DNA from: Martelella sp. NC20
GTDB taxonomy: Bacteria > Pseudomonadota > Alphaproteobacteria > Rhizobiales > Rhizobiaceae
Length of the DNA: 64,000 nucleotides
Direction of reading: 5' to 3'
NCBI RefSeq assembly: GCF_013459645.1
Contig: NZ_CP054861.1
Span: 2,716,001 to 2,780,000 of the forward strand
Of the stretch, positions 13,762 through 45,420 are shown one piece after another (the first letter of the stretch is position 1; each line of letters opens with the position of its first letter). The position numbers were made by a program, and so were the translations under genes. The notes beneath the pieces were generated by a model. It was not told where the DNA came from, ran no database searches, and saw only the letters and a list, made by a program, of their open reading frames with translations.

Positions 13762-14721
13762 CTATACTTTTTTTGATATGGTGACTCTGTCGTTCTGAGT
13801 TCGGCTCGCTTGGTCACGGATGATCTCGGCGAGGGCGATGGCCATGTCGCCGGTCTCGCGTTCGCGGGGAAAAGCCAGCCCGATGGGGCTGATCAGGCGG
13901 ATATTGGCGAAGAACAAAGCGGTGAACCGTCCGGATTCGAGTTCCGGCTTGAGCGCACTGACGGGGAAGACAACAATGGCGTTATTTTCGCGCGCATATT
14001 CGCAAGCGAACTCCACCGAGGCTGTTTCGATGGTGTTGGAGAAAGCGCCGGCGCCGATCGAGGCCAGATAATTGTCGATGTCCTCGCGGATCGTCGAGCG
14101 GGGGAGGGGGATGATAACGGGATAGCGGTCGAGGTCGTCGAAACCGGGCGACTTTATCTGACGGAGGGGATGGTTTTGCGTGACGGCGAAGACCAGTTCC
14201 TCGTTGAACAGTCGTTCAAAACGGATACCCTTCATCGACTGGCTGTCGACGCCGACGCCGATCGCCATCTCGATTTCGTTTGCGCGCAGCTTGTCCATGA
14301 TATCGGCATTCGAGCCGGTTATGATCCTGACGCTCGTGTCGCCATGACGTTTCTTGAATTCGGCGATCCAGCCGGGCAGCAGCGTCCGCACCACGCTCGG
14401 CATCGCGCCGATGACGAGCGCGGGCTTTCTGTCCTTGGTGCGCACTCTGCCGACGCCCTCGGCGATCTCATGCATGCCCCGCAAAACGTGCATGTGAAAC
14501 GTCTGTCCCGCATCCGTCAGGGTCAACCCGTCGCGCGAACGGTCGAAAAGCGGGCTGCCCAGCAGATCCTCCAGTTCACGAAGCGATCGCGAGAGCGCCG
14601 GCTGCGCGGTCCCGAGGTTGGCGGCTGCGCGCGAGATATTGCGTTCGCTTGCGATCTCCAGAAAACAGCGGATGTGGCGCAGACGGATGCCCTGCAGACT
14701 GGCCGGGTTGGTTGTCGACAT
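13762..14721 (-). CDS. LysR family transcriptional regulator (PcaQ/GbpR-like)
   Basis: 319-residue regulator with an N-terminal winged helix-turn-helix (about residues 12-70: 'RHIRCFLEIASERNISRAA' followed by 'AQPALSRSLRELEDLLG') and a C-terminal effector-binding domain (about 95-300). The opening 'GIRLRHIRCFLEIA' resembles the PcaQ/GbpR subgroup that controls aromatic-acid or sugar genes. It lies upstream of and in the same direction as the dctP operon, and downstream of the HpaI aldolase gene, so it may control either. LysR proteins usually act as inducer-dependent activators; the inducer is unknown. Confidence 0.9.
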   Translation of the reverse strand: MSTTNPASLQGIRLRHIRCFLEIASERNISRAAANLGTAQPALSRSLRELEDLLGSPLFDRSRDGLTLTDAGQTFHMHVLRGMHEIAEGVGRVRTKDRKPALVIGAMPSVVRTLLPGWIAEFKKRHGDTSVRIITGSNADIMDKLRANEIEMAIGVGVDSQSMKGIRFERLFNEELVFAVTQNHPLRQIKSPGFDDLDRYPVIIPLPRSTIREDIDNYLASIGAGAFSNTIETASVEFACEYARENNAIVVFPVSALKPELESGRFTALFFANIRLISPIGLAFPRERETGDMAIALAEIIRDQASRTQNDRVTISKKV

Positions 14722-15674: not shown

Positions 15675-15799
15675 ATTATCATCGATAAATCCATAGCTAT
15701 CCATATTTATAAATAAATCGATGATCATGGCAATGAATGGACGAAAAAATAAACGATAACTTGAGTTTTCATCGTTTATATATATTATCATCGATAAAA
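15675..15799. promoter_or_regulatory. divergent promoter region with three ATCATCGAT-type repeats
   Basis: The AT-rich gap between the HpaI aldolase and the flavin reductase holds ATTATCATCGATAAA at 15675-15689 and again at 15784-15798, plus an inverted, diverged copy (AAATCGATGATCAT) at 15715-15728. Between them ATAAACGAT (15749-15757) and ATCGTTTAT (15771-15779) form a 9-bp inverted repeat. The spacing over both promoters is what is expected for cooperative binding of one regulator. Which regulator binds is not shown by the sequence. Confidence 0.5.
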
Positions 15800-15811: not shown

Positions 15812-16315
15812 ATGGAAGAACTCGACAGCGAAGCAATCGGCCTGCAGTTCCGCGCCACCATGCGCAAATACCCGGCTGCCGTAACCATCATCACGGCCAA
15901 TGACGGCATTCGCGATCATGGCATGACGGCGACCGCGGTGACCTCGGTCTCGATGGACCCGCCGTCGATGATGGCATGCCTCAACAACCGCACGCTTCTG
16001 CACACGATGTTGCTGAACCAACCCTATTTTGCCGTCAATGTCCTGAGTGTCAGTCACCCGGAGGTCTCCGAGGCCTTTTCGGGCAAGGTCGCGCCGGAAG
16101 AGCGGTTTTCGACCGGCGGCTGGGTTCGCGACCCGAAAAACATGCTGATCCTCCCGACGGCCCATGCCACCGTGATCTGCTCACGCGTCGCGGCCGTTCC
16201 CTTCGGCACCCACACGATCTTCGTCGGTCGGGTGCTGCGCGCCCATGTGGACGAGGAAACGCGGCCGCTGCTCTATCAGGATGCAGCCTATCACACCTCG
16301 CTGCCGGCGCTGTGA
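15812..16315 (+). CDS. flavin reductase family protein (reductase component of a two-component monooxygenase)
   Basis: 167-residue NAD(P)H:flavin reductase of the HpaC/flavin_Reduct fold. The conserved core is visible as 'PAAVTIITAND' (residues ~15-25), 'GMTATAVTSVSMDPPSMMACLN' split around 33-55, and 'FAVNVLS' followed by the 'FSGKVAPEERF' region. It supplies reduced FMN or FAD to an oxygenase. The partner is very probably the group D monooxygenase encoded convergently 36 bases away. ATG 15812 follows GGAGGGG by 6 bases and is preferred to an ATG 75 bases upstream, which lies inside the operator region. Confidence 0.88.
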   Translation: MEELDSEAIGLQFRATMRKYPAAVTIITANDGIRDHGMTATAVTSVSMDPPSMMACLNNRTLLHTMLLNQPYFAVNVLSVSHPEVSEAFSGKVAPEERFSTGGWVRDPKNMLILPTAHATVICSRVAAVPFGTHTIFVGRVLRAHVDEETRPLLYQDAAYHTSLPAL

Positions 16316-16351: not shown

Positions 16352-17572
16352 TTAAAATATCCCGACCGGTTGCAGGCCGAGCATCTGCGTGCCGTACATT
16401 TCGGCAAGCATGTCCCAGTCTATGCTCGAATGGGTGGCAGCCGAATTGGCGTCGCGCCACTGGCGTTGCACCTTGAAATCGAGCCCCGCCGCCGCCGCGC
16501 CCGACTTGTTGTAGAGTTCCTGCGTCACCTCCGCCGCCGTCCGGCCGGCGAAGCCATGGTTGCGGCGAATGCGGGTTCGCTGTTCGATCGTCAGCGTCCC
16601 GCCGTTATCGAGCACGGCCTCTCCCTCCTGAAGCGACATCAGCATCATCACCCGGGCTGCGTCGACGCGGGCGGCGTTGGAGCCCACGAGCCGTTGGATC
16701 AGCTTGCTCTCGGCGACCTTTTCGAACACCCCCGGACGCGCGAGCCGGGTCGCCCCCGCCGCAATTTCCGTGAATGCCTCGACTGCGCCCTGGGCCATGC
16801 CGACGATCGGCGACACAAGCGCGGTGGGACCGAAGGTCGGATAGGTGTATTTTGCCTGCGGATTGTCAGGAATATCACGGCCGGGGACCGCGCCCGTCAT
16901 GACCGCCTTGATCGGCAGGACGCGGTGCGCAGGAACGAAAACCGGTTCGGTGATATGCACCGTCTTCGATCCGGTGCCCTGCAGGCCCGCCACATTCCAG
17001 CTGTCGTGGTCGATGGTGATGTCGGTCACCGGCACCAGAAACCAGGACAGCATCGGCGGGCCTTCCCCCGCCGGGTTCGGCACCAATCCAGCAAGAATGG
17101 CCCATGCGGCGCTGTCGATGCCGGATGCCCATGGCCACGAGCCGGCAATCATGTAGCCGCCATCGGCTGGCGTCACCTTCGGCGTCGGCGTATAGGAAAC
17201 GGCAAGCAGATTGTCGGTATCTTCCCAGACCTCCTCCTGCGCCTCGAGCGGAAAGAACGCCGTCATCCAGCCGAAGCAGACGGCAAGCGTGCCGCACCAC
17301 GCCGTCGAGCCGCAATGGCGGCCGAGTTCGAAGCCCACCCGCGCCATCGCCGAGGGCGGATACTCATAGCCGCCGAAACGTTTCGGCTGCATTACCTTGA
17401 AAAGCCCCGTCTCGCGGAGTTCGGCCATGGTTTCCTCGGAAATACGCTTGGCCTTTTCGGTTGCCGGCGCGCGTTCGCCAAAGCGTGATCCGAGCGCTGC
17501 CACCCGCTGCAGGATCGTGTCGAATTCCGGCCGTAACGGCTCGGCGGCACGTACGGTTGATGTGTTCTGCAT
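16352..17572 (-). CDS. group D flavin-dependent monooxygenase (acyl-CoA dehydrogenase fold, HsaA/HpaB-C2-like)
   Basis: 406-residue oxygenase component with the acyl-CoA dehydrogenase fold. The alpha-helical N-terminal domain runs to about residue 120 ('KAKRISEETMAELRETGLFKV', then 'QPKRFGGYEYPPS'), a beta domain with 'YMIAGSWPWASGIDSAAW' and 'NVAGLQGTGSKTV' follows at about 140-215, and a helical C-terminal domain completes it. Such proteins hydroxylate phenols with reduced flavin from a separate reductase, which is encoded next door. The GGGAGGAG ribosome site stands just before ATG 17572. A GTAAC-N4-GTTAC palindrome lies 24 bases upstream, so TetR-family repression is likely. The aromatic substrate is unknown. 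Confidence 0.88.
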   Translation of the reverse strand: MQNTSTVRAAEPLRPEFDTILQRVAALGSRFGERAPATEKAKRISEETMAELRETGLFKVMQPKRFGGYEYPPSAMARVGFELGRHCGSTAWCGTLAVCFGWMTAFFPLEAQEEVWEDTDNLLAVSYTPTPKVTPADGGYMIAGSWPWASGIDSAAWAILAGLVPNPAGEGPPMLSWFLVPVTDITIDHDSWNVAGLQGTGSKTVHITEPVFVPAHRVLPIKAVMTGAVPGRDIPDNPQAKYTYPTFGPTALVSPIVGMAQGAVEAFTEIAAGATRLARPGVFEKVAESKLIQRLVGSNAARVDAARVMMLMSLQEGEAVLDNGGTLTIEQRTRIRRNHGFAGRTAAEVTQELYNKSGAAAAGLDFKVQRQWRDANSAATHSSIDWDMLAEMYGTQMLGLQPVGIF

Positions 17573-17596
17573 TCACTCCTCCCTGAGCTGCATACC

Positions 17597-17610
17597 GTAA
17601 CGATCGTTAC
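17597..17610. promoter_or_regulatory. TetR-type operator GTAAC-GATC-GTTAC
   Basis: A perfect 14-bp palindrome 24 bases upstream of the monooxygenase start codon and in the gap after the TetR gene. The same arms with the same 4-base spacer recur at 18495-18508 and 27795-27808, and this copy shares the flanking C-A-G-T-T-T with the third. Position close to the start codon fits repression. Confidence 0.65.
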
Positions 17611-17702
17611 AGTTTCTAAGCTGCCATTGAAGGAAGGGAAAGTCAAACCGGAAGTGTCCGGTTGCCCGCAACAGGCCAATAATGGGCCAAACGGGAAGAG
17701 GA

Positions 17703-18371
17703 TCAGCGGGTCGGCCGGCTGCCGTTCAGGAAGATATCGACGGCAAGCCGAACAGTGTCGTCGATCCGGGCGACGCGGCTTTCCTCGCTCACCGCCGACG
17801 TCAGCCATTTCAGCATGGCCTCGCCGATCAGCGCATCATGGAAAAGCATGGCGAGGCGAAAGGGGTCGACGTCGTTCCGCAGCGCACCGCGTTCCTGCTG
17901 CAGCGCAATCCAGGAGGCGATGACGCCGCAGGCCGTGCGTGGGCCTGTGTCGTAAAACAGCCGCCCTGCCTCGGGGAAGGCGCGGCCGATCGACGTCATC
18001 AGCCGGTGGAATTTCAGCACTTCGGTGCTGAGTACTATATTGACGAAGCTGTAGGCGATGCGGGTGAGCTGTTCCTCGATCGTGCCGGTCGTGCGGATGT
18101 CGATCTTAACCGTCACCTCGCCGCACATCCATTCCACAACGGCTTCGAACAGCTTTTCCTTGCTGCCGAAGTTGGAATAAATCGTGCCTTTGGAGCCGCC
18201 GGTAACATCGATGATGTCGTTGATCGAAACGGAATCATAGCCCCGTTCGAGAAACAGCTCTCCGGCGAGCCGCACGATCCTGTCGCGCTTGCTTTCTTCC
18301 TCGCCCGCCGGACGCGGCTCGAAATTGCCGCTCAGATCAAGCGCTTGCGTAGCGGGAACGTCATTGGACAC
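17703..18371 (-). CDS. TetR/AcrR family transcriptional regulator
   Basis: 222-residue repressor-type protein. The DNA-binding three-helix domain spans about residues 25-75: 'KRDRIVRLAGELFLERGYDSVSINDI' begins it and 'GSKGTIYSNFGSKEKLFEAV' contains the recognition helix and its following Tyr/Phe. The C-terminal ligand domain is unremarkable. The start is GTG 18371, seven bases after GGGAG; no ATG lies in frame nearby. It is flanked on both sides by GTAAC-N4-GTTAC palindromes (17597 and 18495), the usual sign of an autoregulated local repressor. I infer that it controls the monooxygenase, the AtaL/SDR/TRAP operon and the VOC operon. Confidence 0.9.
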   Translation of the reverse strand: MSNDVPATQALDLSGNFEPRPAGEEESKRDRIVRLAGELFLERGYDSVSINDIIDVTGGSKGTIYSNFGSKEKLFEAVVEWMCGEVTVKIDIRTTGTIEEQLTRIAYSFVNIVLSTEVLKFHRLMTSIGRAFPEAGRLFYDTGPRTACGVIASWIALQQERGALRNDVDPFRLAMLFHDALIGEAMLKWLTSAVSEESRVARIDDTVRLAVDIFLNGSRPTR

Positions 18372-18494
18372 CCTGTTCTCCCAGATCCTGCGGACCTATC
18401 GGAGCGCGCCGGGCGCGTCCGGTCGGCATGAACTCGTTAAATATTCGAATAGGCGATTGCGAACACTTTGACAAGTTCGCAAAGCATCGTTATC

Positions 18495-18508
18495 GTAACA
18501 TACGTTAC
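18495..18508. promoter_or_regulatory. TetR-type operator GTAAC-ATAC-GTTAC
   Basis: Same 5-bp arms and 4-base spacer as at 17597-17610, located in the divergent region between the TetR gene (start 18371) and the AtaL-SnoaL gene (start 18637). It is therefore placed to control both directions. Confidence 0.6.
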
Positions 18509-18636
18509 AGTACGTTCATCTGCGACAAAGCAACGCGTCGCATGGTGGCATTTTGTTTCGCCGCGCCTTGGGGAAAGGCCCGCGGTTTCGGTTCGCAGCG
18601 CCGGGGAGGCGCTGCCGCAAACAGGAGGAGAAAACC

Positions 18637-19464
18637 ATGATCGAAGTCAGCCGTCGTATCCCGGTCAACGAGCCGGGCCAGCCGCATCTCACCCGCTCCG
18701 ATGTCTGGCAGGGACTGGTGAGGAAAGCCAACAACGCCCTGCCGTTCGTTCCCGCCATGACGCATTGCGAAGTGACCGAGCGCATCGATGACAACACGAT
18801 CATCCGCGAGATCGAGTTTCGCGGTGAGCGCTGCCATGAAAAGGTGACGCTGACGCCCGAGACCAATGTCCGGTTCGACCGTCTCGACGGAACGGTGCTC
18901 GGCACCATCAACAATGATATCGAAGAAGACGATGATGGGCTCGGCCTGCGCTTCAGCTTCTCCCTCAGCCTCGAAGGTGTCGCCGACGGCAGTTCCGAGG
19001 AGATCGAATACGGCAAGGTGGTCGAGCGCGATTACCTCAAGGCCGTGGATGCCACGCTCGCCGCGATCCGCAAGTTGAAGAACCAGCGCAGCGCGCTGAT
19101 CGGGCAATATTACAAGGTCGTCGATTCGATGGATCTTGCCGCCTTCGAAGCCATGCACACGCCGGACGCAAGGGTGCTGTTTGCGAACTTTCCCGCGGCA
19201 GAGGGGCGGGCGGCCATTGCCGGCGCGATCGGCCATTTCTGGTCAACGATCGGGGGGCTCAGCCACCGCATCGTCAACCGCTGGGATCATGCGGACGAGA
19301 CCATCCTCGAAGTGGCGGTCGACTACACCCGGCTTGATGGCAGCCATGTCGTGCTGCCCTGCGTTTCGATCATCAGGCCGGAGGATGACAAGGTCAAGGA
19401 ACTGCGCGTCTTCATCGACGTCGCGCCGATCTATGCAAAGCAGGAAGAAGCCGTCGGGGCCTGA
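18637..19464 (+). CDS. AtaL-like (DUF1857, START fold) and SnoaL-like fusion protein
   Basis: 275-residue two-domain protein. Residues 1 to about 147 resemble the AtaL/DUF1857 branch of the SRPBCC (START-like) ligand-binding fold: 'TRSDVWQGLVRKANNALPFV' early, then an acidic beta-rich stretch ending 'EYGKVVERDYLKAVDATL'. Residues about 150-265 resemble a SnoaL/NTF2-like domain: 'YYKVVDSMDLAAFEAMHTP', 'HFWSTIGGLSHRIVNRW' and 'LRVFIDVAPIYA'. Both folds bind small hydrophobic ligands; the exact activity is unknown. AGGAGGAG stands 6 bases before ATG 18637. It begins a plus-strand operon with an SDR, a TRAP transporter and a TAXI-like protein, under a TetR operator. Confidence 0.75.
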   Translation: MIEVSRRIPVNEPGQPHLTRSDVWQGLVRKANNALPFVPAMTHCEVTERIDDNTIIREIEFRGERCHEKVTLTPETNVRFDRLDGTVLGTINNDIEEDDDGLGLRFSFSLSLEGVADGSSEEIEYGKVVERDYLKAVDATLAAIRKLKNQRSALIGQYYKVVDSMDLAAFEAMHTPDARVLFANFPAAEGRAAIAGAIGHFWSTIGGLSHRIVNRWDHADETILEVAVDYTRLDGSHVVLPCVSIIRPEDDKVKELRVFIDVAPIYAKQEEAVGA

Positions 19465-19560
19465 ACCCAGTCCGACGGCAAGCAACATGCCCGGCATCGC
19501 TCCGCGTGGCCGGGCATGGGCTTCCATTGACCGAAACATATCTCTTCAAGGAACAGGATA

Positions 19561-20376
19561 ATGGCAATCGCGGATGTCAGCGGGAAGTCGCTGGAAGCTC
19601 TGGTCTCGCTTGCGGGACGCAATTATGTGGTCACCGGTGCGGGGGCCGGTATCGGCAGGGCGGTGGCCAGTCGGCTTGCGGAGGCCGGCGGCCGGGTAAT
19701 GGTGGCCGACCTCAACGTCGAGGCCGCCGAGGCGACGGTGGCCGGCCTTGCGGGTAGCGGCCACCTTGCGCAGAGGATCGATGTCACCGACCCTGCCTCG
19801 GTCGCGGCGGCGGCCGACGCGGCCGTCGAAAAGCTCGGCGGCATTGATGGCTGGGCCAATATCGCCGGTGTCTATCCCGTCATCCCGACGCTCGACATGA
19901 GCGATGGCGACTGGAACAGGATCATCGGCATCAATCTCAACGGGACGTTTTACGGCGCGCGCGAGGCGGCGCGGCGGATGACGGCGGCGGGCAGGCCGGG
20001 TGTGATCGTCAACACGGTCTCGACCACGGTGCACAAGGTGCCGGCCCCCGGTCTCGCAGCCTATATCGCCGCCAAGGGTGGTGTCGAGGCGCTGACGCGG
20101 GCGCTCGCGCTCGAATTCGGCCCCTCCGATATCCGCGTTCTGGCGGTTGGTCCGACGCTGACGCGCACGGAGGGCACACTCGCCCAGAAGCCGTTTCTGG
20201 AGCAGGCGATGGGCAATATCGGCGACGCCCACGAGCTCTACGGCGGACGGCTGCCGCTCGGCCGCATCGCGGTCGCCGATGACATCGCCCGCGTCGTTCT
20301 GTTCGCCGTGAGCGATCTCGGCCAGATGATGACCGGCGGCGCGCTTTATATCGACGGCGGCGACCTGGTGTTCTGA
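19561..20376 (+). CDS. SDR family oxidoreductase
   Basis: 271-residue short-chain dehydrogenase with TGAGAGIG at about residues 25-32, 'NIAGVYPV' near 100, 'NTVSTTV' containing the catalytic Ser and an intact Y-I-A-A-K motif near 168-172, then 'TGGALYIDGGDLVF' at the end. It probably oxidises or reduces a ring or side-chain alcohol of the compound handled by this cluster. It lies 96 bases after the AtaL-SnoaL gene and 135 bases before dctP; the latter gap contains a GC hairpin (CAGGCG...CGCCTG at about 20378-20397) without a T run, which may attenuate rather than end transcription. Confidence 0.9.
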   Translation: MAIADVSGKSLEALVSLAGRNYVVTGAGAGIGRAVASRLAEAGGRVMVADLNVEAAEATVAGLAGSGHLAQRIDVTDPASVAAAADAAVEKLGGIDGWANIAGVYPVIPTLDMSDGDWNRIIGINLNGTFYGAREAARRMTAAGRPGVIVNTVSTTVHKVPAPGLAAYIAAKGGVEALTRALALEFGPSDIRVLAVGPTLTRTEGTLAQKPFLEQAMGNIGDAHELYGGRLPLGRIAVADDIARVVLFAVSDLGQMMTGGALYIDGGDLVF

Positions 20377-20511
20377 CAGGCGCCGCGGATCGCCTGGCGA
20401 AGGTGAATGGAGATGTAAGACAGGGTTTTTCAAAAGCGGCGGATCAGACCATCGGCTTGGGAGGGCGGATGCCGGTCAGTCGATGCACTTGACAAAGGGA
20501 GGAGAAAGAAA

Positions 20512-21522
20512 ATGAAGACCTGGACGAGCGGCCTTGCCGCCATTGCCATCGGCGTTTCGGCCGGCATGGCATGCGCAGACGAGCTTTCGGTGGCGACTTT
20601 CGTGCCGCCGCAGCATCACACCAATGTCAATGTTTTCGAGTGGTTTGGTGATGAACTCGCCGGGCGCACCGATGGTGAGCTTGCCGTGCGCATCTATCCC
20701 GGCGGCCAGCTTGGCGCCGGACCGGTGCAGCAATACAAGCGCGCCGTGGAGGGCGTGGCCGATGTGGTGCTCGGCGTTGCCGGCTATACGCCGGAACTGT
20801 TCCCGAAGGTCATGCTCACGGTCCCGCCCGGCAAGGCCGCGAACTCGCTTGAGCTTTCCGATGCCTTCATCGAGAACTGGGATCTTTTCGCCGACGAGTT
20901 CGACGAGGTCGTGTTCCTCGGCATCGGCTTTCCGGCCGGCACGTCGCTTGCGGCCACCAAGGACCTGTCGACGCTGGACTCATGGAAGGGCGCCAAGATT
21001 GTCCCCTATACCGCCCAGATGGCGCCGATGATCGAAGCGCTTGGGGCCGTGCCGGTGCAGATGCCGGTCACCGATGTCTATACCGCGCTTTCCACCGGCA
21101 CGATCGACGGCGCGATTGCCGCCCACAACAACATGCTGCCGCCGTGGAACTGGCAGGAAGTGACGACGCATTACATCGACAATATCCCGCCGCAGTTTCA
21201 GACGGTCTATTTCATAATGAACAAGGACCGTTACCAGGCGCTGCCGGAAGATCAACGCGCCGCGATCGACGCGCTCAAGGGAAAGCCGTTCACCGACGTC
21301 GCCTCGGCAAGCTTTCACAACGCCGACCAGCAGGCGCTGGAAAAGATGAAAGCTTCCGGCGACCTGCCGTTCGCGTTCATCACCGTCTCCGATGCCGAAC
21401 GGGCCAGGATGGACGCAGCCGTCGCCGAGGGCATGGAGCAGATATTTGACGAGTATGAAGCGCGCGGCATTTCCAACGCCCGCCAGATCTATTCCGATCT
21501 GCACGGTGCGGTGGACGACTGA
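20512..21522 (+). CDS. dctP: TRAP transporter solute-binding protein DctP (second system)
   Basis: 336-residue periplasmic receptor with a clear signal peptide (residues 1-23, ending in GMACA). DctP features include 'FVPPQHHTNVNVFEWFGDEL', 'GELAVRIYPGGQLG' near residues 55-70 and 'PVTDVYTALSTGTIDGAIA' near 183-200, the ligand-closing segment. GGGAGGAG lies 9 bases before ATG 20512. It starts a dctPQM set followed by a TAXI-like gene, all inside the TetR-associated cluster, so an aromatic or alicyclic carboxylate is a plausible ligand; this is inference. Confidence 0.92.
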   Translation: MKTWTSGLAAIAIGVSAGMACADELSVATFVPPQHHTNVNVFEWFGDELAGRTDGELAVRIYPGGQLGAGPVQQYKRAVEGVADVVLGVAGYTPELFPKVMLTVPPGKAANSLELSDAFIENWDLFADEFDEVVFLGIGFPAGTSLAATKDLSTLDSWKGAKIVPYTAQMAPMIEALGAVPVQMPVTDVYTALSTGTIDGAIAAHNNMLPPWNWQEVTTHYIDNIPPQFQTVYFIMNKDRYQALPEDQRAAIDALKGKPFTDVASASFHNADQQALEKMKASGDLPFAFITVSDAERARMDAAVAEGMEQIFDEYEARGISNARQIYSDLHGAVDD

Positions 21523-21591
21523 ACCACTTCCGAAACGGTACAATTCGCGGCGGCGTCCCTGCGCTGCCGCGCACACCACAAGAGAGCGATC

Positions 21592-22131
21592 ATGACAGGA
21601 CAGGAAACGCCAGGCCTTCTTGGCCATATCGACCGCATACTGAAATGGTCGGCGCTTTTCGTCGGCGGAACTGCTCTTGCCTTCATGACCGCGTTCTCGA
21701 CGATCAACGTTCTGGTGATGCGAAAGGCGCTGAACGATCCTGTTCGGGGCGGCGAGGACCTGATGACGCTCGCGCTGGTCGTGGTGGTGGCGATTGCGAT
21801 CCCCTTCGGCGCGCGCACCGGCGCGCATATCGAAATCGAACTCCTGGAAGAGCATATGAGCCAACCTGTTGCCCGTTTCAGCCTCGCCGCCATGAAACTG
21901 CTCGCCATCGCGCTGACCGCGTTTCTGGCGTGGCGGTTGTGGGTGGCCGGCGGACAGGCAAGCCGCTTCGGAGAGTCCTCGCCAACGCTGATGATCTCGT
22001 TCGGGCCGTTCTACCGGGCATTGGCGCTGTCCTTTTCCGTCTACGTGCTGGTTCTCGCGCTTGAGTTCGGCGTTCTTCTCGGCGGTGGCAAAATTCCGAA
22101 GATCGACCTTTTGCGCGGAGACGGTTCATGA
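21592..22131 (+). CDS. dctQ: TRAP transporter small permease DctQ (second system)
   Basis: 179-residue membrane protein with four hydrophobic helices (about residues 17-38, 55-75, 92-115, 133-155) and the DctQ hallmark 'GARTGAHIEIELLEEH' in the loop after helix 2. It links the receptor to DctM. It starts 69 bases after dctP, and its stop overlaps the dctM start by four bases (ATGA), so the two permease subunits are translationally coupled. Confidence 0.9.
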   Translation: MTGQETPGLLGHIDRILKWSALFVGGTALAFMTAFSTINVLVMRKALNDPVRGGEDLMTLALVVVVAIAIPFGARTGAHIEIELLEEHMSQPVARFSLAAMKLLAIALTAFLAWRLWVAGGQASRFGESSPTLMISFGPFYRALALSFSVYVLVLALEFGVLLGGGKIPKIDLLRGDGS

Positions 22132-23483
22132 CGCTGGCGCTGATCGGCATTCTCGGCCTTGCGCTGATGTTTTTGTTGATGGCGCTCCGTTTGCCCGTCG
22201 CCCTTGCCATGCTGGGGGTCGGCTTCGCGGGTACGATCGCTGCCAATGCCGCCAAGTTTCTGTCTTTCGGCATGCCGTCGGAGCTTGCCTGGTCGCGGGC
22301 CGTGCGCATCGCCTTTTCCAATCTTTCCGGCGAGACCTTCGAGGCGGCGTCCAGCTACAATCTTCTGGTCATTCCGATGTTCGTGCTGATGGGCAATATC
22401 GCCGGCGCCTCCGGCATGTCGGCGGATCTTTTCCGTGCCGCCTATCGCTGGATGGGGCATTTCCGCGGCGGCCTTGCCTCCGCGACCATCACCGCCTGCG
22501 CAGGTTTTGCGGCGCTGTCGGGCTCTTCTCTTGCCTCCGCTGTGACGATGGGCCGTGTCGCGCTTCCGGCCATGCGCCGCTACCGCTACGACGACGGGCT
22601 TGCCACCGGCGCGGTTGCCGCGGGCGGCACGCTCGGCTTTCTGATCCCCCCCTCCGGCGGCATGATCATCTATGCGGTACTGACGGAACAGAGCATCGGA
22701 CGGCTGTTCATGGCAGGGGTCATTCCCGGCATTCTTCTGACCGCGCTTTTCATTCTCACGATCATGCTGACGGTGCTGAGGAACCCCGCGGCGGGGCCGG
22801 CGGGGGAGCGGGCGAGCTGGGCTGAGCGTAGTCGTTCGCTGTTGAGCGCGCTTCCCATCCTGTTGGTCGTGATGGTGGTTATCGGCGGCATGTATACCGG
22901 CTTTTTCACGCCGGTGGAGGCCTCGTCCGTCGGCGCGTTTTTTGCCTTCGCCGTCGCCGTTTTGCGGCGGCGCCTCAGCATCAAGGCAATGCGGGAGGTG
23001 ATCCTTCAGACCTTGTCCGCGACAGCGACGATCTTCCTCATCCTGATAGGGGCTTTCGTTTTCATCCCGTTCATGGCGCTCACGGAAATTCCCCAGCATC
23101 TTGTTACCGTCCTGACGGCGCTGCCGATCGGCGATGTCGGCGTATTGATCGTGATCATCGCGGCCTATCTGATACTCGGCATGTTCCTCGACACGATGGC
23201 CATGCTGGTTTTGACGATTCCGGTGGTAATACCGATTGCACTGGGCCTTGACTGGGATCTCGTCTGGTTCGGTATCATCGTGGTCATCGCCCTCGAAATG
23301 GGGATGATCTCGCCGCCGGTCGGCATCAACGTCTTCATCGTGAAATCGATAGCGCCGGATGTGCCCATGGGCCGGATTTTCCGGGGCATCTGGTCCTTCT
23401 GGCTGGCCATGCTGGTTATGATCGCCCTGCTGGTCGTCTTTCCCGAAATCGCCCTTTATCTCCCAAGTCAGGTGATTGGATGA
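22128..23483 (+). CDS. dctM: TRAP transporter large permease DctM (second system)
   Basis: 451-residue transport subunit. 'CAGFAALSGSSLASAVTMGRVALP' and 'AAGGTLGFLIPPSGGMIIYAV' mark the first repeat, and 'LGMFLDTMAMLVLTIPVVIP' and 'EMGMISPPVGINVFIVK' the second. This is the usual DctM size and has the re-entrant glycine/proline motifs for ion-coupled uptake. Overlaps dctQ upstream and the TAXI-like gene downstream, four bases each, so all are in one transcript. Confidence 0.92.
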   Translation: MTLALIGILGLALMFLLMALRLPVALAMLGVGFAGTIAANAAKFLSFGMPSELAWSRAVRIAFSNLSGETFEAASSYNLLVIPMFVLMGNIAGASGMSADLFRAAYRWMGHFRGGLASATITACAGFAALSGSSLASAVTMGRVALPAMRRYRYDDGLATGAVAAGGTLGFLIPPSGGMIIYAVLTEQSIGRLFMAGVIPGILLTALFILTIMLTVLRNPAAGPAGERASWAERSRSLLSALPILLVVMVVIGGMYTGFFTPVEASSVGAFFAFAVAVLRRRLSIKAMREVILQTLSATATIFLILIGAFVFIPFMALTEIPQHLVTVLTALPIGDVGVLIVIIAAYLILGMFLDTMAMLVLTIPVVIPIALGLDWDLVWFGIIVVIALEMGMISPPVGINVFIVKSIAPDVPMGRIFRGIWSFWLAMLVMIALLVVFPEIALYLPSQVIG

Positions 23484-24331
23484 AACTGACCCTTTACTCA
23501 CCCGCCCCGCCGATGACCCGGCTGCACGAGTTGAACCTCGCATTCGGTGCGCTGCTGGCAGAGGCCGGTTTCGAAAACGAGGTGGTTGCACTCGCGCTTC
23601 CCGATGCGATCAATCGCCCCGCAGCGATGTCTGCTGAGGAAAGACGCTTCCGGTTGCCGATTGTCACGGTTGCCGATTTTCTGCCCGCCATCAACGCGAC
23701 CGGGCCGGACTGGCATGGTTATGATCGCCCTTGCCCCGATCTGAAGCTTGCCGCGAGCCTTTATGACGTCGCATTCGGGATTACCGCCGCCAGCGCGCTG
23801 ATCGAATGGCCGGAAGATCTTGCCGGCAAACGAATATTCGCGCCGCCGCGTCCGTCTTCTGTGCGTCTTCTGACGGAGCTTCTGGTGGAAAAGGGCTATG
23901 GGCTTTCAGCCAGCGCGGAGCTTTTCGATTCGACGCCGCTCGATATCGGACCGGCGATCGGGCGCGGCGCGCTGAAGGCGACAAGCTGGAATATCACGAC
24001 GCTCGAAAACGGCAAGGCTGAGCCGATGCTCAGGATCATGAATGCGCGTTTCCTGGCCGTCGATGAGGAGGCGCGAGGCCGTATCAATGATGGTTTGCAT
24101 TTCGAAATCGGTGGTTGTTCGGTTTCGGGTGTGCCGCTTCTTGCCTTTCGTCAGGGCATCGCCGTTTGGGACGATACCCCCGATGACATCGCTGCCGCCA
24201 TCGTGGATGTTCTGAGCGGTCAAAATGAAGGTCCGTTCTTTTCGAAATACGAAGACCTCTCCGCATGGCCCGGACTGCGGGATGAACACCGCCACCGGGC
24301 CTTGCTCGCCGTCCGGGACGGTTTCCGATAG
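23480..24331 (+). CDS. TAXI/NMT1-like binding-protein-fold protein without signal peptide
   Basis: 283-residue protein whose middle shows a periplasmic-binding-protein pattern: 'WPEDLAGKRIFAPPRPSSVRL' starts the second half, as 'LKGKRV...' does in TAXI and NMT1 proteins, and 'IAAAIVDVLSGQNEG' resembles their C-terminal helices. It begins MKLTLYSPAPPMTRL and has no signal peptide, so it should stay in the cytoplasm. Its ATG overlaps the dctM stop by four bases. It may be a cytosolic ligand sensor, an enzyme of the binding-protein fold (as in some decarboxylases) or a decayed receptor. I do not recognise a named family with confidence. Its stop directly abuts the stop of the convergent class II aldolase gene. 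Confidence 0.7.
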   Translation: MKLTLYSPAPPMTRLHELNLAFGALLAEAGFENEVVALALPDAINRPAAMSAEERRFRLPIVTVADFLPAINATGPDWHGYDRPCPDLKLAASLYDVAFGITAASALIEWPEDLAGKRIFAPPRPSSVRLLTELLVEKGYGLSASAELFDSTPLDIGPAIGRGALKATSWNITTLENGKAEPMLRIMNARFLAVDEEARGRINDGLHFEIGGCSVSGVPLLAFRQGIAVWDDTPDDIAAAIVDVLSGQNEGPFFSKYEDLSAWPGLRDEHRHRALLAVRDGFR

Positions 24332-25015
24332 TCAGGCCTCCGGGTCGCCGTAAGTCAGGTGGTCCCACATCCGCTCCAGGATGCGGCCCGACCAGGTGGC
24401 GCGGCGGGTTGCCTCCTCTTGCGTGAAGAAGGCCGGGTTGCCGGCGTCTCCGGCTGCAAGCACGGCAAGCTCGACGCGGGCGGCATCCTCGCCATACCAC
24501 GTCAGCACCACCGCCTCCTCGAGGCTTTCGCCCGCCGTCACCAGGCCGTTGCCGCGCATCATCACGCCGCGACCGTCACCCATCAGTTCGGCAAGCGCCG
24601 CGGCGGCATCATCGTCCCGGATCAGTTGTGGATCGTCCCAGAGCGGGATGCCGGGGTAGAAATAACTGCCAAAGCCGTGGCGCATCTTCGGCGTCAGCCG
24701 CAGCGTCGAAAGCGCCATCAGGTTCGGCGGCATCGAGCGCACCACCCCGCCGACGTCGGACCGGCGTCGATATATCTCCCGGTGGATACGGACCTCGCCC
24801 AGCACGCCATCGGGCAGTGGGCCGTCGATCGGCACGACCGAGCCGGTCGCCTCGCGCGGCATCTGCCCCATCGGAACCGGGGCGCAGACCAGGAAATGGC
24901 TTTCGTCCAGCCGCGCGCTGCAATGGCCATAGGCATGGACAAGGCCATGCCGGCCAAGGGCGCGCGCGGCCATGCGTACACGCCGTTCGTCCGATGGCTC
25001 GGAAACTGCCGTCAT
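24332..25015 (-). CDS. class II aldolase/adducin-fold protein lacking the zinc ligands
   Basis: 227-residue protein with the class II aldolase/adducin layout: 'GLVHAYGHCSARLDE' (residues 24-38, the usual GNxS region), 'GEVRIHREIYRRR' (73-85), 'VGGVVRSMPPNLMALS' (88-103) and 'RGNGLVTAGESLEEAV' (154-169). In active members the third segment carries H-x-H and the fourth R-G-H-G, all zinc ligands; here they read R93, M95 and N156. The fold seems intact but the metal site is gone, so a classical aldolase or decarboxylase reaction is unlikely. ATG 25015 overlaps the EthD-like stop by four bases. Last gene of a four-gene minus-strand operon with two VOC proteins. Confidence 0.8.
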   Translation of the reverse strand: MTAVSEPSDERRVRMAARALGRHGLVHAYGHCSARLDESHFLVCAPVPMGQMPREATGSVVPIDGPLPDGVLGEVRIHREIYRRRSDVGGVVRSMPPNLMALSTLRLTPKMRHGFGSYFYPGIPLWDDPQLIRDDDAAAALAELMGDGRGVMMRGNGLVTAGESLEEAVVLTWYGEDAARVELAVLAAGDAGNPAFFTQEEATRRATWSGRILERMWDHLTYGDPEA

Positions 25016-25884
25016 CTCGTCCCCGTGTTCTGCAATGCCATCACGGAATCGCTGAATTGCGTGATCGCGGTCACCTGCTCGATCGAGCGGGCGATGATCG
25101 GCGTGCGCAAGCCCTCGAAGGTCAGCCCGCCGTCGCGCTTCAGAGTGTGGGTGACGTTGACCTTGAAGGCATGGCAGGCGGCCATGTGTTTCGCGCGGCC
25201 CGCAGCGCCTTCGCGCCATGCGGCGCCATTGGCGAAACGGGCGAGTGCAAGACCGTTCTCGAAGGCGATCTCGACGGCCGCGTCATAACGGCGCGGCGGC
25301 GGGGCGAGCGCGGAGACGGCACTGGCATCGGCCATCTGCGAATCCTCGCTGAAGGGTTCGAACAGGTGCATGCGCAGCTTCTGGACCTCTCCATCGTCCG
25401 CGATCGCCGGGGCGAACTCTTCTCTCATGTAGCGGCGGAAATCCTCGACGCTTCCGGCCCTGCGGATGAACAGCAGGAATTTGAGCAGCCGGGGTGCGGC
25501 AAACGATGCCGGCGTGTTGCGGTCGACGAAGGTTTTCGAATTGTCGCCCACGGCCGGATAGGCCACCGTTTCCTCGAAGATATTGGCCTCGTCGGTCATC
25601 AGCGGTTCCATGGCACCGAGAAACTGGTGCAGGTGCTCCTCGCTTTCGAAGCACGGTTCGGGCACGCCCTGGAACCGGTCGCCTTCGGCCAGGCAGGACT
25701 CCACACCCACCGTCTTCGGAAACACCTGCCCGTCCTCATAGGAAATCTCATGCAGCCAGAGATGATCGATCCCCGGCAGCCGCGCGGCGATCTGCGCGGC
25801 ATGGGCGTTGACCCAATAGGTATAGAACACGTCGAGCGGTATGCCCGGACGCTTCTTCAGTGAAAACAGCATGGTCAGAAACAT
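25012..25884 (-). CDS. EthD-like double dimeric alpha-beta barrel protein
   Basis: 290-residue protein built of two ferredoxin-like halves. The first (about 1-125) begins 'MFLTMLFSLKKRPGIPLDVF' and has 'YTYWVNAHAAQIAARLPGI' as in EthD proteins; the second (about 128-270) repeats the pattern from 'LLKFLLFIRRAGSVEDFRRYM'. EthD-family proteins bind or cyclise aromatic compounds or assist monooxygenases; no catalytic residue can be assigned here. GAGGGAGGAG stands a few bases before ATG 25884; the frame is open 23 codons upstream without family similarity. It lies between a VOC dioxygenase gene and the zinc-less aldolase gene. Confidence 0.75.
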   Translation of the reverse strand: MFLTMLFSLKKRPGIPLDVFYTYWVNAHAAQIAARLPGIDHLWLHEISYEDGQVFPKTVGVESCLAEGDRFQGVPEPCFESEEHLHQFLGAMEPLMTDEANIFEETVAYPAVGDNSKTFVDRNTPASFAAPRLLKFLLFIRRAGSVEDFRRYMREEFAPAIADDGEVQKLRMHLFEPFSEDSQMADASAVSALAPPPRRYDAAVEIAFENGLALARFANGAAWREGAAGRAKHMAACHAFKVNVTHTLKRDGGLTFEGLRTPIIARSIEQVTAITQFSDSVMALQNTGTR

Positions 25885-25986
25885 CGGCTTCTCCTCCCTC
25901 AAAACCCGATTGCCTGATTGCTTTTGCCGTGGAACGCTCTCCTCTCGCCCCACTGCTCTATGTCGGGCGGCCCGTCCGGCCCGGTC

Positions 25987-26844
25987 TCAGTTCTTGAATT
26001 CCTTGATGTCCGGTTCCGCGCCCCAGCTGCAGAACCCTTTCGGCTCGGCGGGGAACTGGCGTTCGCGCCATAAAAGCTCGTCGGCGATTTCCTGCACGCC
26101 GGAGGAATATTCGAACACCATGCCATCGGGTCCCTCGAAATAGAGAAATTTGGCGGTGGACGTCGGGTGCCGTCCGGGCCCGAACACCATCTTGACATCG
26201 CGCTCCCGCAGGAAATTGTAGGAGCGCTGGATGTCGTCGGCGGTCTCGACCTGGTGGTTGATGTGCTGGATGCCGGCGCGGTTCGTCGGAAACAGCGCGA
26301 TCGTATGATGCACCTCGTCGATCCTCAGAAGCGGTGCATCGCCGATCCGGTCGGAAACCCGCGCATTGCAGACCTCCGTCCAGAATTTCTCGTCGCGCGC
26401 GGCGTTGGTGGTGCAGAGCCCGACATGGGAAAAGCCAGTGATGCCGGCGTCGCGGGTGCCATGATAGCGCCGGCCGGAATGTTCGGGGCGTACCACCAGC
26501 TCGATCGTGTTGCCGGTCGGGTCCCTGAAGCGGATGAAGCTTTTCACCTTGCGCAACGTGGCTTCTTCCGTGGTGCCGATATGGACCGGGGTCTGAAGCG
26601 CCTCGAGCGAGGCGGCGGCCTGGTCGAGATCAGCCTCGGAGCCGACAACGAAGCCGACCGCCTGATCGGCCGGATCGCCCTCGAAATAGCAGAGGGTGTG
26701 GGCGCGCTGGTCCGACTTGAAATAGACCGACCCCTTGTGCCGGTCCTCGACCTCGAGGCCGAGGTAATCCCGGGCGAAGAATTCCGCGCCCTCGATGTCG
26801 CGGGTGCCCATGCGCACGTAACTGACGTCCTGAAGATTGATCAT
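25987..26844 (-). CDS. VOC family extradiol dioxygenase-like protein, metal ligands intact
   Basis: 285-residue two-domain VOC protein of the type I extradiol (catechol meta-cleavage) architecture. The N-terminal domain (about 1-125) is structural. The C-terminal domain (about 133-265) keeps the 2-His-1-carboxylate iron site: His140 in 'GFSHVGL', His197 in 'INHQVE' and Glu245 in 'VFEYSSG'. It should open a catechol-like ring next to the two hydroxyls. It is followed by the EthD-like gene and preceded 54 bases upstream by a paralogue that has lost all three ligands, so the two may form a hetero-oligomer. Confidence 0.87.
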   Translation of the reverse strand: MINLQDVSYVRMGTRDIEGAEFFARDYLGLEVEDRHKGSVYFKSDQRAHTLCYFEGDPADQAVGFVVGSEADLDQAAASLEALQTPVHIGTTEEATLRKVKSFIRFRDPTGNTIELVVRPEHSGRRYHGTRDAGITGFSHVGLCTTNAARDEKFWTEVCNARVSDRIGDAPLLRIDEVHHTIALFPTNRAGIQHINHQVETADDIQRSYNFLRERDVKMVFGPGRHPTSTAKFLYFEGPDGMVFEYSSGVQEIADELLWRERQFPAEPKGFCSWGAEPDIKEFKN

Positions 26845-26898
26845 GCCATTCCTCCATCTTGTCTCGGGCTACACATATGCTGCAGGTCCGGAGCCGGC

Positions 26899-27768
26899 TC
26901 ACACGCCGGCGGAATATTCCGGCACGGTCGAATGGCTGCCCCAGGCGCAGAAGCTCTCGTTTGCATGCGGAAACTGCCGGGGCACTCGGTCTTCGCGGAA
27001 GGGATGACGGTCGCCTTCCGCGACGAAGCCGAACAGCACGCCGTCCGGCCCCTTGAAGGTCAGGAACAACTCGCCCGAGGCGGGTCGCCGGCCGGGGCCG
27101 GAAACGATCGCCACCTGCGCCGACTGCATGAAATAATTGTTCTGCATCAGCTGTTGCAGGCCCTCGACCATGAATTGGACCTCGAGGATCGCGTCGCGGT
27201 TCGAGGGATGGATGGCGATGCGGTGATGCTCGTCATCGAGCGCGATATAGACCGCGTCGCCGACATAATCTGCCACCTTGCCGCCGAAGATCGCCGTCCA
27301 CAGCGCCGTGTCGGCCTCGACATTGGTGGAGGCGAAGGCGACTCCGAAGAACTCGGTGATGCCGGCATCGCGGCTGCCGAAATAGCGCCAGCCGCTGTCC
27401 TGCGCGCGTACGACGAGTTCGATGCGCACCGCGTCGCGGAGCGTGAACCACGCCAGCCCCCGGCAGCGCCGGGCCGCGCATTCCTCCGCGCTGCCGCGCT
27501 CGACCTGATGGCCGGCCGCGGCAAGCTTCTGGCAGACCGCGTCCAGCCCATCGGTGTTCCTGACCTCCATTGCGAGCGTCTGGTCCCCCGGTCCGCCTTC
27601 CTTCTGAAAGAGGGCAAGCGTGTGGTCGCGATTGTCGGAGCGGAACATCTGCAGCCCCTCCGGCGCATCGATCCGCTGCAGCCCGAGAATACGGGTGGCG
27701 AAATGGCCGGCGACCGAGGGGTTTTCGACGCCGAGCCGGACATAGCGGAGTTTTTCGATTGTCGTCAC
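26899..27768 (-). CDS. VOC family protein, dioxygenase paralogue without metal ligands
   Basis: 289-residue two-domain protein aligning end to end with the VOC dioxygenase encoded just downstream (shared 'SRDAGIT'/'TRDAGIT', 'GPGRRPASGELFL'/'GPGRHPTSTAKFL', 'GPDGVLF'/'GPDGMVF'). At the three iron positions it has Gly142, Phe199 and Gly247 in place of His, His and Glu, so it cannot bind iron in the usual way. It is the first gene of the minus-strand operon, 26 bases after a GTAAC-N4-GTTAC operator. A regulatory or scaffold subunit, or a ligand-binding protein, is more likely than a catalyst. The sequence is otherwise intact with no frameshift. Confidence 0.83.
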   Translation of the reverse strand: MTTIEKLRYVRLGVENPSVAGHFATRILGLQRIDAPEGLQMFRSDNRDHTLALFQKEGGPGDQTLAMEVRNTDGLDAVCQKLAAAGHQVERGSAEECAARRCRGLAWFTLRDAVRIELVVRAQDSGWRYFGSRDAGITEFFGVAFASTNVEADTALWTAIFGGKVADYVGDAVYIALDDEHHRIAIHPSNRDAILEVQFMVEGLQQLMQNNYFMQSAQVAIVSGPGRRPASGELFLTFKGPDGVLFGFVAEGDRHPFREDRVPRQFPHANESFCAWGSHSTVPEYSAGV

Positions 27769-27794
27769 ATTCTCCTCCCCAGAGATGCCTGACC

Positions 27795-27808
27795 GTAACA
27801 GTCGTTAC
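27795..27808. promoter_or_regulatory. TetR-type operator GTAAC-AGTC-GTTAC
   Basis: Third copy of the palindrome seen at 17597 and 18495, 26 bases upstream of the first VOC gene and overlapping the stop codon of the aldehyde dehydrogenase gene. It shares the outer CC and CAGTTT flanks with the 17597 copy, so the match extends beyond the arms. Confidence 0.65.
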
Positions 27809-29280
27809 AGTTTGATGCAAATATTTCGAAGCTCGGTATAGAATTCGAGCCCGTGAACCCCGCCCTCGCGGCCGATCCCGGAGTGCTTCATGCCGCCGAA
27901 GGCGGTACGAAGGTCGCGCAGGAACCAGCAATTCACCCAGGTGATGCCCGACTGCAGCCTTGCGCCGACGCGGTGGGCGCGGCTGAGGTCCTGCGTCCAG
28001 AGCATCGAGGCGAGCCCGAATTCGCTGTCATTGGCGCGCGTGATCGCCTCGTCCTCGTCATCGAAGGGGGCAATGTGGACGCAGGGGCCGAAGATTTCCT
28101 CGCGCAGCACCGTGTCGGCATCGTCGAGACCGGTCCAGATCGTCGGTTCCACCCAGTTGCCGCCGGCAAGCCGGCCGTCCATCGCGTAGAGCCCGCCGCC
28201 CGTGACCACGTTCGCCCCATGCCGGGCTGCGACATCGTAATAGCCGGTGATCTTGTCCTTGTGCTCGGCGGAAATCACCGGACCGAAGCTGGTGGCCTTG
28301 TCGAAGGGATCGCCGGGTTTCAGCGCGCGGGCCCGTTCCGCCAGCCCTTCGACAAAGGCATCGAAGATCGGGCGCTCTACATAGAGCCGTTCTGTCTGCA
28401 GGCAGACCTGACCGGCATTCATGAACACCGCGCGGGCCGTCTGTTCCAGCGCCTTCTCCATGTCGCAGTCGGCAAACACGATCCCGGCATTCTTGCCGCC
28501 GAGTTCGAAGGAGACCGGACGCACGCCCTTGGCGGCTGCGCGCATGATCGCCTCGCCGGTGCGGGTCTCGCCGGTGAAGGTGATGCCGTCGATGCCCTGG
28601 TGTTCGGTGAGATACTGGCCGGCCGAACCCGGTCCGAAGCCCTGCACCACATTGTAGACGCCATCCGGAATGCCCGCTTCGCGCATCACCTCGCCGAGAA
28701 GGGCGGCGGTCGAGGGCGTTTCCTCCGACGGCTTGACGACGACGGTGTTGCCGCAGGCAAGCGCCGGCGCGACCTTCCACGTCATCAGCAGGAAGGGCAG
28801 GTTCCACGGGCAGATGACGCCGATGACGCCGCGCGGACCGCGCAGCGTGTAGTTCAGCGCATCGCCGCCATCGGGCGCCACCATCGGAAAGAATTCGCCC
28901 GGCGCATGCTTCAGCGTCTCGGCGAAGGCGCGGAAATTGGCCGCTCCCCGTGGAATGTCGAGATGGGAGGCGAGGTTCACCGGCTTGCCGGTGTCGAGCA
29001 TCTCCGCCCTCAGGAAGTCGTCGAACCGGGCCTCGATGCCGTCGGCGATGGCATGAAGCGCCCGTGCGCGTTGGTCGAGCGTCAATTTGCCCCAGGGGCC
29101 GGAAAGCGCCGCGCGCGCGGCGGAAACGGCGTGGTCGACATCCTCGGCAGTGGCGACTTCGACCGTAGAGACCACCTCGCCCGTTGCCGGATCGATGTTC
29201 TCGAACGCATCCCGTCCGCCGGGGGATACCGGCTGTCCGCCGATAAAGCTCGTGATCCGTGGATGGCTCAGGACATTCAT
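27805..29280 (-). CDS. aldehyde dehydrogenase (2-hydroxymuconic/5-carboxymethyl-2-hydroxymuconic semialdehyde type)
   Basis: 491-residue NAD+-dependent aldehyde dehydrogenase. The catalytic set is present: Asn160 in CPWN, Glu259 in 'SFELGGKN' and Cys293 in 'NAGQVCLQTERLY'; the C-terminal 'FGGMKHSGIGREGG' is typical of the semialdehyde dehydrogenases of meta-cleavage pathways (HpaE, DmpC/XylG). It would oxidise the ring-cleavage semialdehyde. ATG 29280 is preceded by GGAGCG; the frame is open 27 codons upstream into the operator region. It diverges from the GntR gene; the TATCGATA...TTGACTACCGAT block at 29326-29351 covers its promoter. Confidence 0.92.
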   Translation of the reverse strand: MNVLSHPRITSFIGGQPVSPGGRDAFENIDPATGEVVSTVEVATAEDVDHAVSAARAALSGPWGKLTLDQRARALHAIADGIEARFDDFLRAEMLDTGKPVNLASHLDIPRGAANFRAFAETLKHAPGEFFPMVAPDGGDALNYTLRGPRGVIGVICPWNLPFLLMTWKVAPALACGNTVVVKPSEETPSTAALLGEVMREAGIPDGVYNVVQGFGPGSAGQYLTEHQGIDGITFTGETRTGEAIMRAAAKGVRPVSFELGGKNAGIVFADCDMEKALEQTARAVFMNAGQVCLQTERLYVERPIFDAFVEGLAERARALKPGDPFDKATSFGPVISAEHKDKITGYYDVAARHGANVVTGGGLYAMDGRLAGGNWVEPTIWTGLDDADTVLREEIFGPCVHIAPFDDEDEAITRANDSEFGLASMLWTQDLSRAHRVGARLQSGITWVNCWFLRDLRTAFGGMKHSGIGREGGVHGLEFYTELRNICIKL

Positions 29281-29325
29281 AAGGCGCTCCGATGCTTGCA
29301 TGGTTTCAAGCGTAATCGGCATATT

Positions 29326-29351
29326 ATCGGTAGTCAACAAAATTATCGATA
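29326..29351 (-). promoter_or_regulatory. conserved promoter/operator block upstream of the aldehyde dehydrogenase
   Basis: On the minus strand the block reads TATCGATA, AATTTTG, TTGACTACCGAT. The same sequence with one base fewer and one substitution occurs at 33013-33037. TTGACT (29337-29332) can serve as a -35 box with TACGCT 17 bases further as a weak -10. TATCGATA just upstream is a natural operator core; the adjacent GntR protein is the obvious candidate to bind. Confidence 0.6.
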
Positions 29352-29449
29352 TTTTGCGCAAAAGCGATACTTGCGAACGACCTCGTTGATCGCTGAATCA
29401 ACCGATGCTATTGAAGGGTCGGAACCCAGACACCCGGACAAGGACCATT

Positions 29450-45404: not shown

Positions 45405-45420
45405 TGGAATATATATTCCA
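45405..45420. promoter_or_regulatory. IolR-type operator (GGAA-N6-TTCC)
   Basis: TGGAATATATATTCCA is a perfect 16-bp palindrome in the divergent region between iolG and the RpiR-type gene. It contains GGAA-N6-TTCC, the motif I recall for the inositol regulator of Sinorhizobium. It is placed to control both genes. Confidence 0.7.

Follow-up and report, generated by a model that had tools for sequence, protein, structure and literature searches.

Genes and putative operators at the locus

The window analysed here, a stretch of 64,000 nucleotides from Martelella sp. NC20 (contig NZ_CP054861.1, positions 2,716,001 to 2,780,000), contains three copies of the palindrome GTAAC-N4-GTTAC, which we read as putative operators of a single TetR-family regulator. 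This protein (222 amino acids, 17703..18371, minus strand) combines a TetR_N domain with a TetR_C_7 domain, the AefR-like C-terminal domain, and is the proposed binder of all three sites. The sites would tie a poorly characterised aromatic-degradation cluster, with genes for TRAP uptake, HsaA-like hydroxylation and VOC ring cleavage, to one regulator.

Operator 1 (ACCGTAACGATCGTTACAGT, 17594..17613, core 17597-17610; the operators have no strand) precedes the start codon of a flavin-dependent monooxygenase gene by 24 bp. Operator 2 (ATCGTAACATACGTTACAGT, 18492..18511, core 18495-18508) stands between the divergent TetR and AtaL-SnoaL genes, 123 bp from the GTG of tetR and 128 bp from the ATG of AtaL-SnoaL at 18637. 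Operator 3 (ACCGTAACAGTCGTTACAGT, 27792..27811, core 27795-27808) is found 26 bp upstream of VOC1, where it overlaps the stop codon (27805-27807) of an aldehyde dehydrogenase (ALDH) gene. The original prediction, made from the sequence, had placed the sites before the monooxygenase, before the AtaL-SnoaL/SDR/TRAP operon together with the TetR gene, and before a VOC/VOC/EthD/aldolase operon, and these gene assignments hold. The flanks that it described as common to the first and third sites are also there (CC on the left and AGTTT on the right, where site 2 has TC and AGTAC).

The locus was compared with those of five relatives, namely Flavimaribacter sediminis (L017), a bacterial metagenome-assembled genome (MAG; L018), a Pseudolabrys MAG (L019), Bradyrhizobium sp. 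dw_411 (L020) and a Rhizobiales MAG (L021), with Trinickia (L022) as outgroup. Their TetR proteins are 51-72% identical to that of the window, and the outgroup protein 33%. The monooxygenase (16352..17572, minus strand) has an acyl-CoA-dehydrogenase fold and reaches 290.8 bits against the HsaA equivalog, under the 450-bit cut-off, so that it can be called HsaA-like only; its orthologues in L017, L018 and L019 are 68-74% identical. On the other side of the TetR gene, a rightward operon (all plus strand) begins with a protein containing AtaL and SnoaL_2 domains (18637..19464), with orthologues in the same three loci that are 72-77% identical. Its start is most likely the ATG at 18637, where the sequence aligns with the corresponding starts in L017 and L018, and not the longer open reading frame start at 18553. 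It is followed by a short-chain dehydrogenase/reductase (SDR, 19561..20376), the TRAP transporter genes DctP, DctQ and DctM (20512..23483) and, at the end of the operon, a protein of 283 amino acids without a Pfam match at E 0.001 (23480..24331), which has a 4-base overlap with the end of DctM.

The leftward operon (all minus strand) has VOC1 (26899..27768) as the first gene behind operator 3, followed by its paralogue VOC2 (25987..26844), and towards its end come an EthD-domain protein (25012-25953) and a class II aldolase/adducin protein (24332-25219), whose start is uncertain and which overlaps the EthD gene. VOC2 is extradiol-dioxygenase-like, with H-H-E at three positions that we take to be the metal ligands of extradiol dioxygenases. 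VOC1 has G-E-G at the same three positions and is probably a conserved non-catalytic partner of VOC2. The order of the EthD and aldolase genes is the same in L017 and L018. The VOC1 orthologues of these two loci are also without the H-H-E ligands (G/E/C in L017, G/E/G in L018). Upstream of VOC1 lies the ALDH gene, which encodes a 2-hydroxymuconic semialdehyde dehydrogenase (TIGR03216, 800 bits, cut-off 693; 27805..29361, minus strand), and a GntR gene (29405) is divergent from it in the window as well as in L017 and L018.

The TetR regulator

The assignment of the 17703-18371 protein to the TetR family is supported by PF00440, the N-terminal TetR helix-turn-helix (49.1 bits, cut-off 24), and by PF14246, the AefR-like C-terminal domain (61.4 bits, cut-off 22). 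The predicted structure is an all-helical TetR fold of ten helices with a mean pLDDT of 83.9, residues 1-23 being below 50. Its best fold matches in the PDB are a putative Mesorhizobium TetR regulator, FrrA, NalC and MexL, and CmeR is matched as well. None of the TetR families named in NCBIfam (ScbR, FasR, MtrR, AcrR, KstR and others) was reached: 15 matched, all far below cut-off, the best being ScbR with 48.3 against a cut-off of 150. The palindrome adjoins its own regulator gene, as would be expected of a member of the TetR_C_7 group, and presumably acts there as operator.

Rarity and position of the sites

It was claimed in the original prediction that identical 5-bp arms with a 4-base spacer stand at 17597, 18495 and 27795, and a pattern scan of the window finds all three exact. 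In the whole genome (6,109,677 bases, 3 contigs) these are the only exact copies, so that the search for unrelated copies that had been proposed returned none in 6.11 Mb. As a control, the same pattern read backwards has five exact copies genome-wide. When one mismatch is tolerated, the genome has 26 matching places, 23 of them beyond the three sites, against 290 for the control. The chance that three randomly placed sites fall within 10.2 kb of 6.11 Mb is about 8e-6. An extended form, ACnGTAAC-N4-GTTACnGT, is perfect at sites 1 and 3 and has one mismatch at site 2; elsewhere in the genome it is approached at eight places with two mismatches each, and nowhere better. Three near-matches in the window (14865, 15881 and 55115) were rejected as sites. 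Each has two mismatches, and the one at 15881 scores 1.1 with the matrix from relatives' sites described below. In all, six places in the window match with two mismatches or fewer; shuffled sequences average 3.77, and 19 of 100 shuffles reach six.

A promoter-like pair for the AtaL-SnoaL operon, TTGACA-17-TATCGT, is found at 18468..18496 (plus strand), and TATCGT, the second of its hexamers, shares two bases with the operator 2 core. In L017 and L018 a TTGACA with like spacing, aligned by eye, also stands ahead of the operator 2 counterpart.

Conservation in relatives and beyond

Conservation in relatives, another point of the original prediction, is borne out for two of the three sites. The palindrome is present in the TetR promoter region of all five relatives, exact in L018, with one mismatch in L017, L019 and L020, and with two in L021. 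Ahead of the monooxygenase an exact copy is found in every locus that has the gene (4/4, the window and L017, L018 and L019), and in these four the operator aligns together with an upstream TTGAC box (TTGTC in L019). Site 3 is absent from L017 and L018. Five exact copies occur in the 103 kb around the relatives' TetR genes, whereas the 12 other genomes of the genus, about 58.8 Mb by rounded sizes, hold 12.

The TetR of the window was not found in these 12 genomes at E 1e-25, the only one of 13 to match being the window's own. Such an absence is as expected of a horizontally acquired cluster, which this may be. Six of the 12 copies are arranged as three pairs with a spacing of 92 or 93 bp, their flanks differ from those of the window sites (GTAACAGCTGTTAC or GTAACACCTGTTAC), and they were not counted as members; the remaining six were read at their flanks only. 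The paired GTAACAGCTGTTAC / GTAACACCTGTTAC palindromes belong to three congener genomes (L006, L008 and L010) without the window's TetR.

A matrix was built solely from the ten sites of the relatives, with the window sites left out. In the 64 kb it ranks the three sites of the window first to third (30.9 for operator 1, 30.5 for operator 2 and 22.4 for operator 3), and when each locus is left out in turn its own sites still come out on top; since the relatives' sites were chosen by likeness, this ranking is a consistency test. The independent evidence is the position of the sites and the excess of exact copies in the relatives. The next separate match in the window is a palindrome, GGAATATATATTCC, at 45406, which scores 8.7. 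The window genome has two weaker relatives of the TetR (the next matches, at E 2.5e-18 and 3.7e-11), and no site scoring above 4.9 was found in about 3.4 kb around each (L025, L026).

Orthologue scans were run at three levels and matched one of 397 genomes of the order (single sequence, E 1e-30), two of 385 of the class and two of 151 of the family (both at E 1e-35), where each count includes the window's own genome and only the best 7 to 19 candidates per genome were scored. The other genomes were G464, with a TetR 36% identical and a best site of 8.0 in 3.6 kb, and G807, which is very probably the L017 genome, because the contig coordinates match, and was counted once. A TetR paralogue in G807 was matched at 4e-65, and the window genome is without a second TetR of that strength. 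A closer relative of the window TetR, 90% identical to it (P0001), is represented here by its protein sequence.

Seven loci of distant TetR_C_7 regulators (L022, L024 and L040-L044) were scanned as controls, and five of them hold related palindromes, mostly of GTAC type, with scores from 15.2 to 23.5; in L024 (8.0) and L042 (1.5) the matrix scan showed no related palindrome. In L022, L040 and L041 less than 200 bp separate the palindrome from the matched TetR stretch downstream of it. In L043 it adjoins a VOC gene about 1.5 kb away, and in L044 it adjoins another TetR gene, to which it may belong. Taken over the loci scanned, this suggests a recognition scheme shared among TetR_C_7 regulators.

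Proposed mechanism and alternatives

The 17703-18371 protein is very likely a homodimeric repressor of TetR_C_7 type that acts on three promoters via GTAAC-N4-GTTAC and is released by an aromatic effector. In this model a dimer of the AefR/NalC/MexL/CmeR type would bind the palindrome, or its extended form, and each of the three sites would overlap or abut a promoter region: that of the monooxygenase, that of the divergent tetR/AtaL-SnoaL-SDR-TRAP pair, or that of the VOC-VOC-EthD-aldolase operon. Without effector the dimer would keep RNA polymerase off all three, repressing itself as well. An aromatic substrate or ring-cleavage intermediate would then bind the C-terminal domain and release the protein, so that uptake, hydroxylation and ring cleavage come on together. 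What we infer here is that the protein binds and represses, that the promoters lie where proposed, and what kind of compound the effector is. Occupancy of a promoter and release by an effector are the ordinary mode of the TetR family, and the circuit seems genuine, though of an ordinary kind. The claim that one regulator links the three operons is well supported for two of them and plausible for the VOC/VOC/EthD/aldolase operon, whose membership is argued from the window sequence because operator 3 is absent from two relatives.

Several observations weigh against this reading. Operator 3 scores lowest of the three (22.4), and it was not found in L017 and L018, the two relatives with the ALDH-VOC junction. 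The flavin reductase encoded at 15737 is likely to work with the monooxygenase, and its gene in the window is not preceded by any site. A sigma-70 scan of the stretch gave three promoter-like pairs against 2.7 expected by shuffling, so the TTGACA-17-TATCGT pair at operator 2 is suggestive only. The sites behind the matrix were picked for their likeness to the window site (that of L021 by eye), and the matrix is therefore not fully independent. The specificity is also partly common to a wider group, because five more distant TetR loci show related palindromes. In addition, L017 and L018 have a third copy of the palindrome (with one mismatch and exact, respectively), flanked by a second TetR paralogue on one side and an FAH gene on the other. 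This paralogue (L017:12871-13386 and L018:12885-13454) is 45% identical to the window TetR and stands beside a flavin reductase gene; with it next to a like site, the motif alone names no single protein in these two genomes. The paralogue and the FAH gene are divergent, with the near-identical operator adjoining.

The absence of operator 3 from L017 and L018 gives rise to the alternative that survives best, in which the core regulon comprises only the monooxygenase and tetR/AtaL, the palindrome at site 3 arose by chance or has decayed, and the VOC operon is transcribed with ALDH, as its layout in relatives suggests. In both relatives about 34 bp lie between the matched parts of ALDH and VOC1, with no operator there, and no site above 8 is found upstream of ALDH; the low score of site 3 also fits. 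Against this, site 3 is exact in both arms and in the outer ACn...nGT, its distance of 26 bp to the start mirrors the 24 bp of site 1, and with only three exact copies in the genome it is very unlikely that chance would have put a third one into the same cluster and in a promoter-like place. We consider this alternative unlikely, though it is the one to be taken most seriously.

Under the regulon reading, operator 3 was probably gained in the lineage of the window, as it is absent at the ALDH-VOC1 junction of L017 and L018, and it looks lineage-specific; it is conceivable that it was instead lost in those two. In the alignment with L017 and L018, the window bases that complete the palindrome face a gap of 12 bases. 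Such a gain would place ring cleavage under TetR control, with ALDH kept on its own promoter beside the divergent GntR gene. A wider joint reading, to which we give about equal weight for and against, is that operator 3 arose in place and split an ancestral ALDH-VOC-VOC-EthD-aldolase operon, with GntR for ALDH and TetR for ring cleavage, and that alphaproteobacterial orthologues of this TetR share a single operator code, TACnGTAACGTACGTTACnGTA, the main departure from it in more distant TetR_C_7 regulators being the step from GTAAC to GTACC.

A second alternative is that the sites are bound by the LysR (13762) or the GntR (29405) protein. Both are encoded near the sites, and GntR keeps its place beside ALDH in two relatives. 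Three regulators encoded within 13.7-34.9 kb of the window (LysR at 13762, TetR at 17703 and GntR at 29405) were compared with 20-kb stretches of L017-L021, and only for the TetR did all five contain a close relative. GntR has one in two (L017 and L018), and LysR is above 50% identity in one (L018 only), with a 28% match in L020. In L019, L020 and L021 the site is found beside the TetR gene, with no GntR match and no close LysR in 20 kb (E 1e-8), and the gap between GntR and ALDH in the window is without a GTAAC-type site, which makes this explanation very improbable. That all three sites are chance palindromes has next to no probability: the window is rich in inverted repeats of this geometry, 5-bp arms around a 4-base gap (123, several G+C-rich ones thrice within 10 kb), so that the arm sequence and its uniqueness carry the weight and not the palindrome alone, but this arm pair occurs three times in the whole genome, always in the cluster, and sites 1 and 2 recur at matching positions in other genera, which refutes chance for these two.

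The proposed regulon offers a specific and testable operator of 20 bp, which could be used to find members of the pathway in other genomes or to set up an effector screen or biosensor. It is also a likely example of an operator being gained at the junction of an operon.

Comparison with known systems

FrrA from Bradyrhizobium and NalC and MexL from Pseudomonas are among the best solved-structure matches of the window TetR, a likeness of sequence and fold. MexL is tied to an RND efflux pump. By its entry titles, FrrA was solved with genistein and naringenin, which are phenolic effectors, and it is likewise tied to an RND efflux pump and not to a catabolic cluster (PMC4070704). A literature search made largely at the level of listings did not meet the operator sequences of AefR, NalC or MexL. 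A text search gave no paper in which TetR appears together with the string GTAACNNNNGTTAC (the one alternative spelling searched was GTAAC), and none with five of six cluster terms.

The operator itself has a close parallel in that of CmeR from Campylobacter, which is homologous to the window TetR (profile E 2e-21, Foldseek E 1.5e-5). The target of CmeR is an inverted repeat of 16 bases (PMC4488513), and for C. jejuni its sequence is reported as TGTAATAAAAATTACA (PMC6079250). The cmeABC operator given there, TGTAAT-AAAA-ATTACA, can be set beside TGTAAC-N4-GTTACA here (consensus of 13 sites), with the same 5-bp arms and 4-base centre. It differs in the fifth base of the arm, which is T and not C (GTAAT against GTAAC), and CmeR controls an efflux pump.

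As an example of a similar arrangement, EdcR from Caenibius tardaugens is a TetR repressor of estradiol-degradation operons (PMC8700777). EdcR has a TetR_C_11 effector domain and another palindrome, TnnCnnTACnAnTnGTAnnGnnA. The likeness lies in the layout: similar palindromes stand at several promoters of one catabolic cluster, they overlap the -10 boxes, and autoregulation is proposed, so that EdcR provides a worked example of TetR repression in a catabolic cluster.

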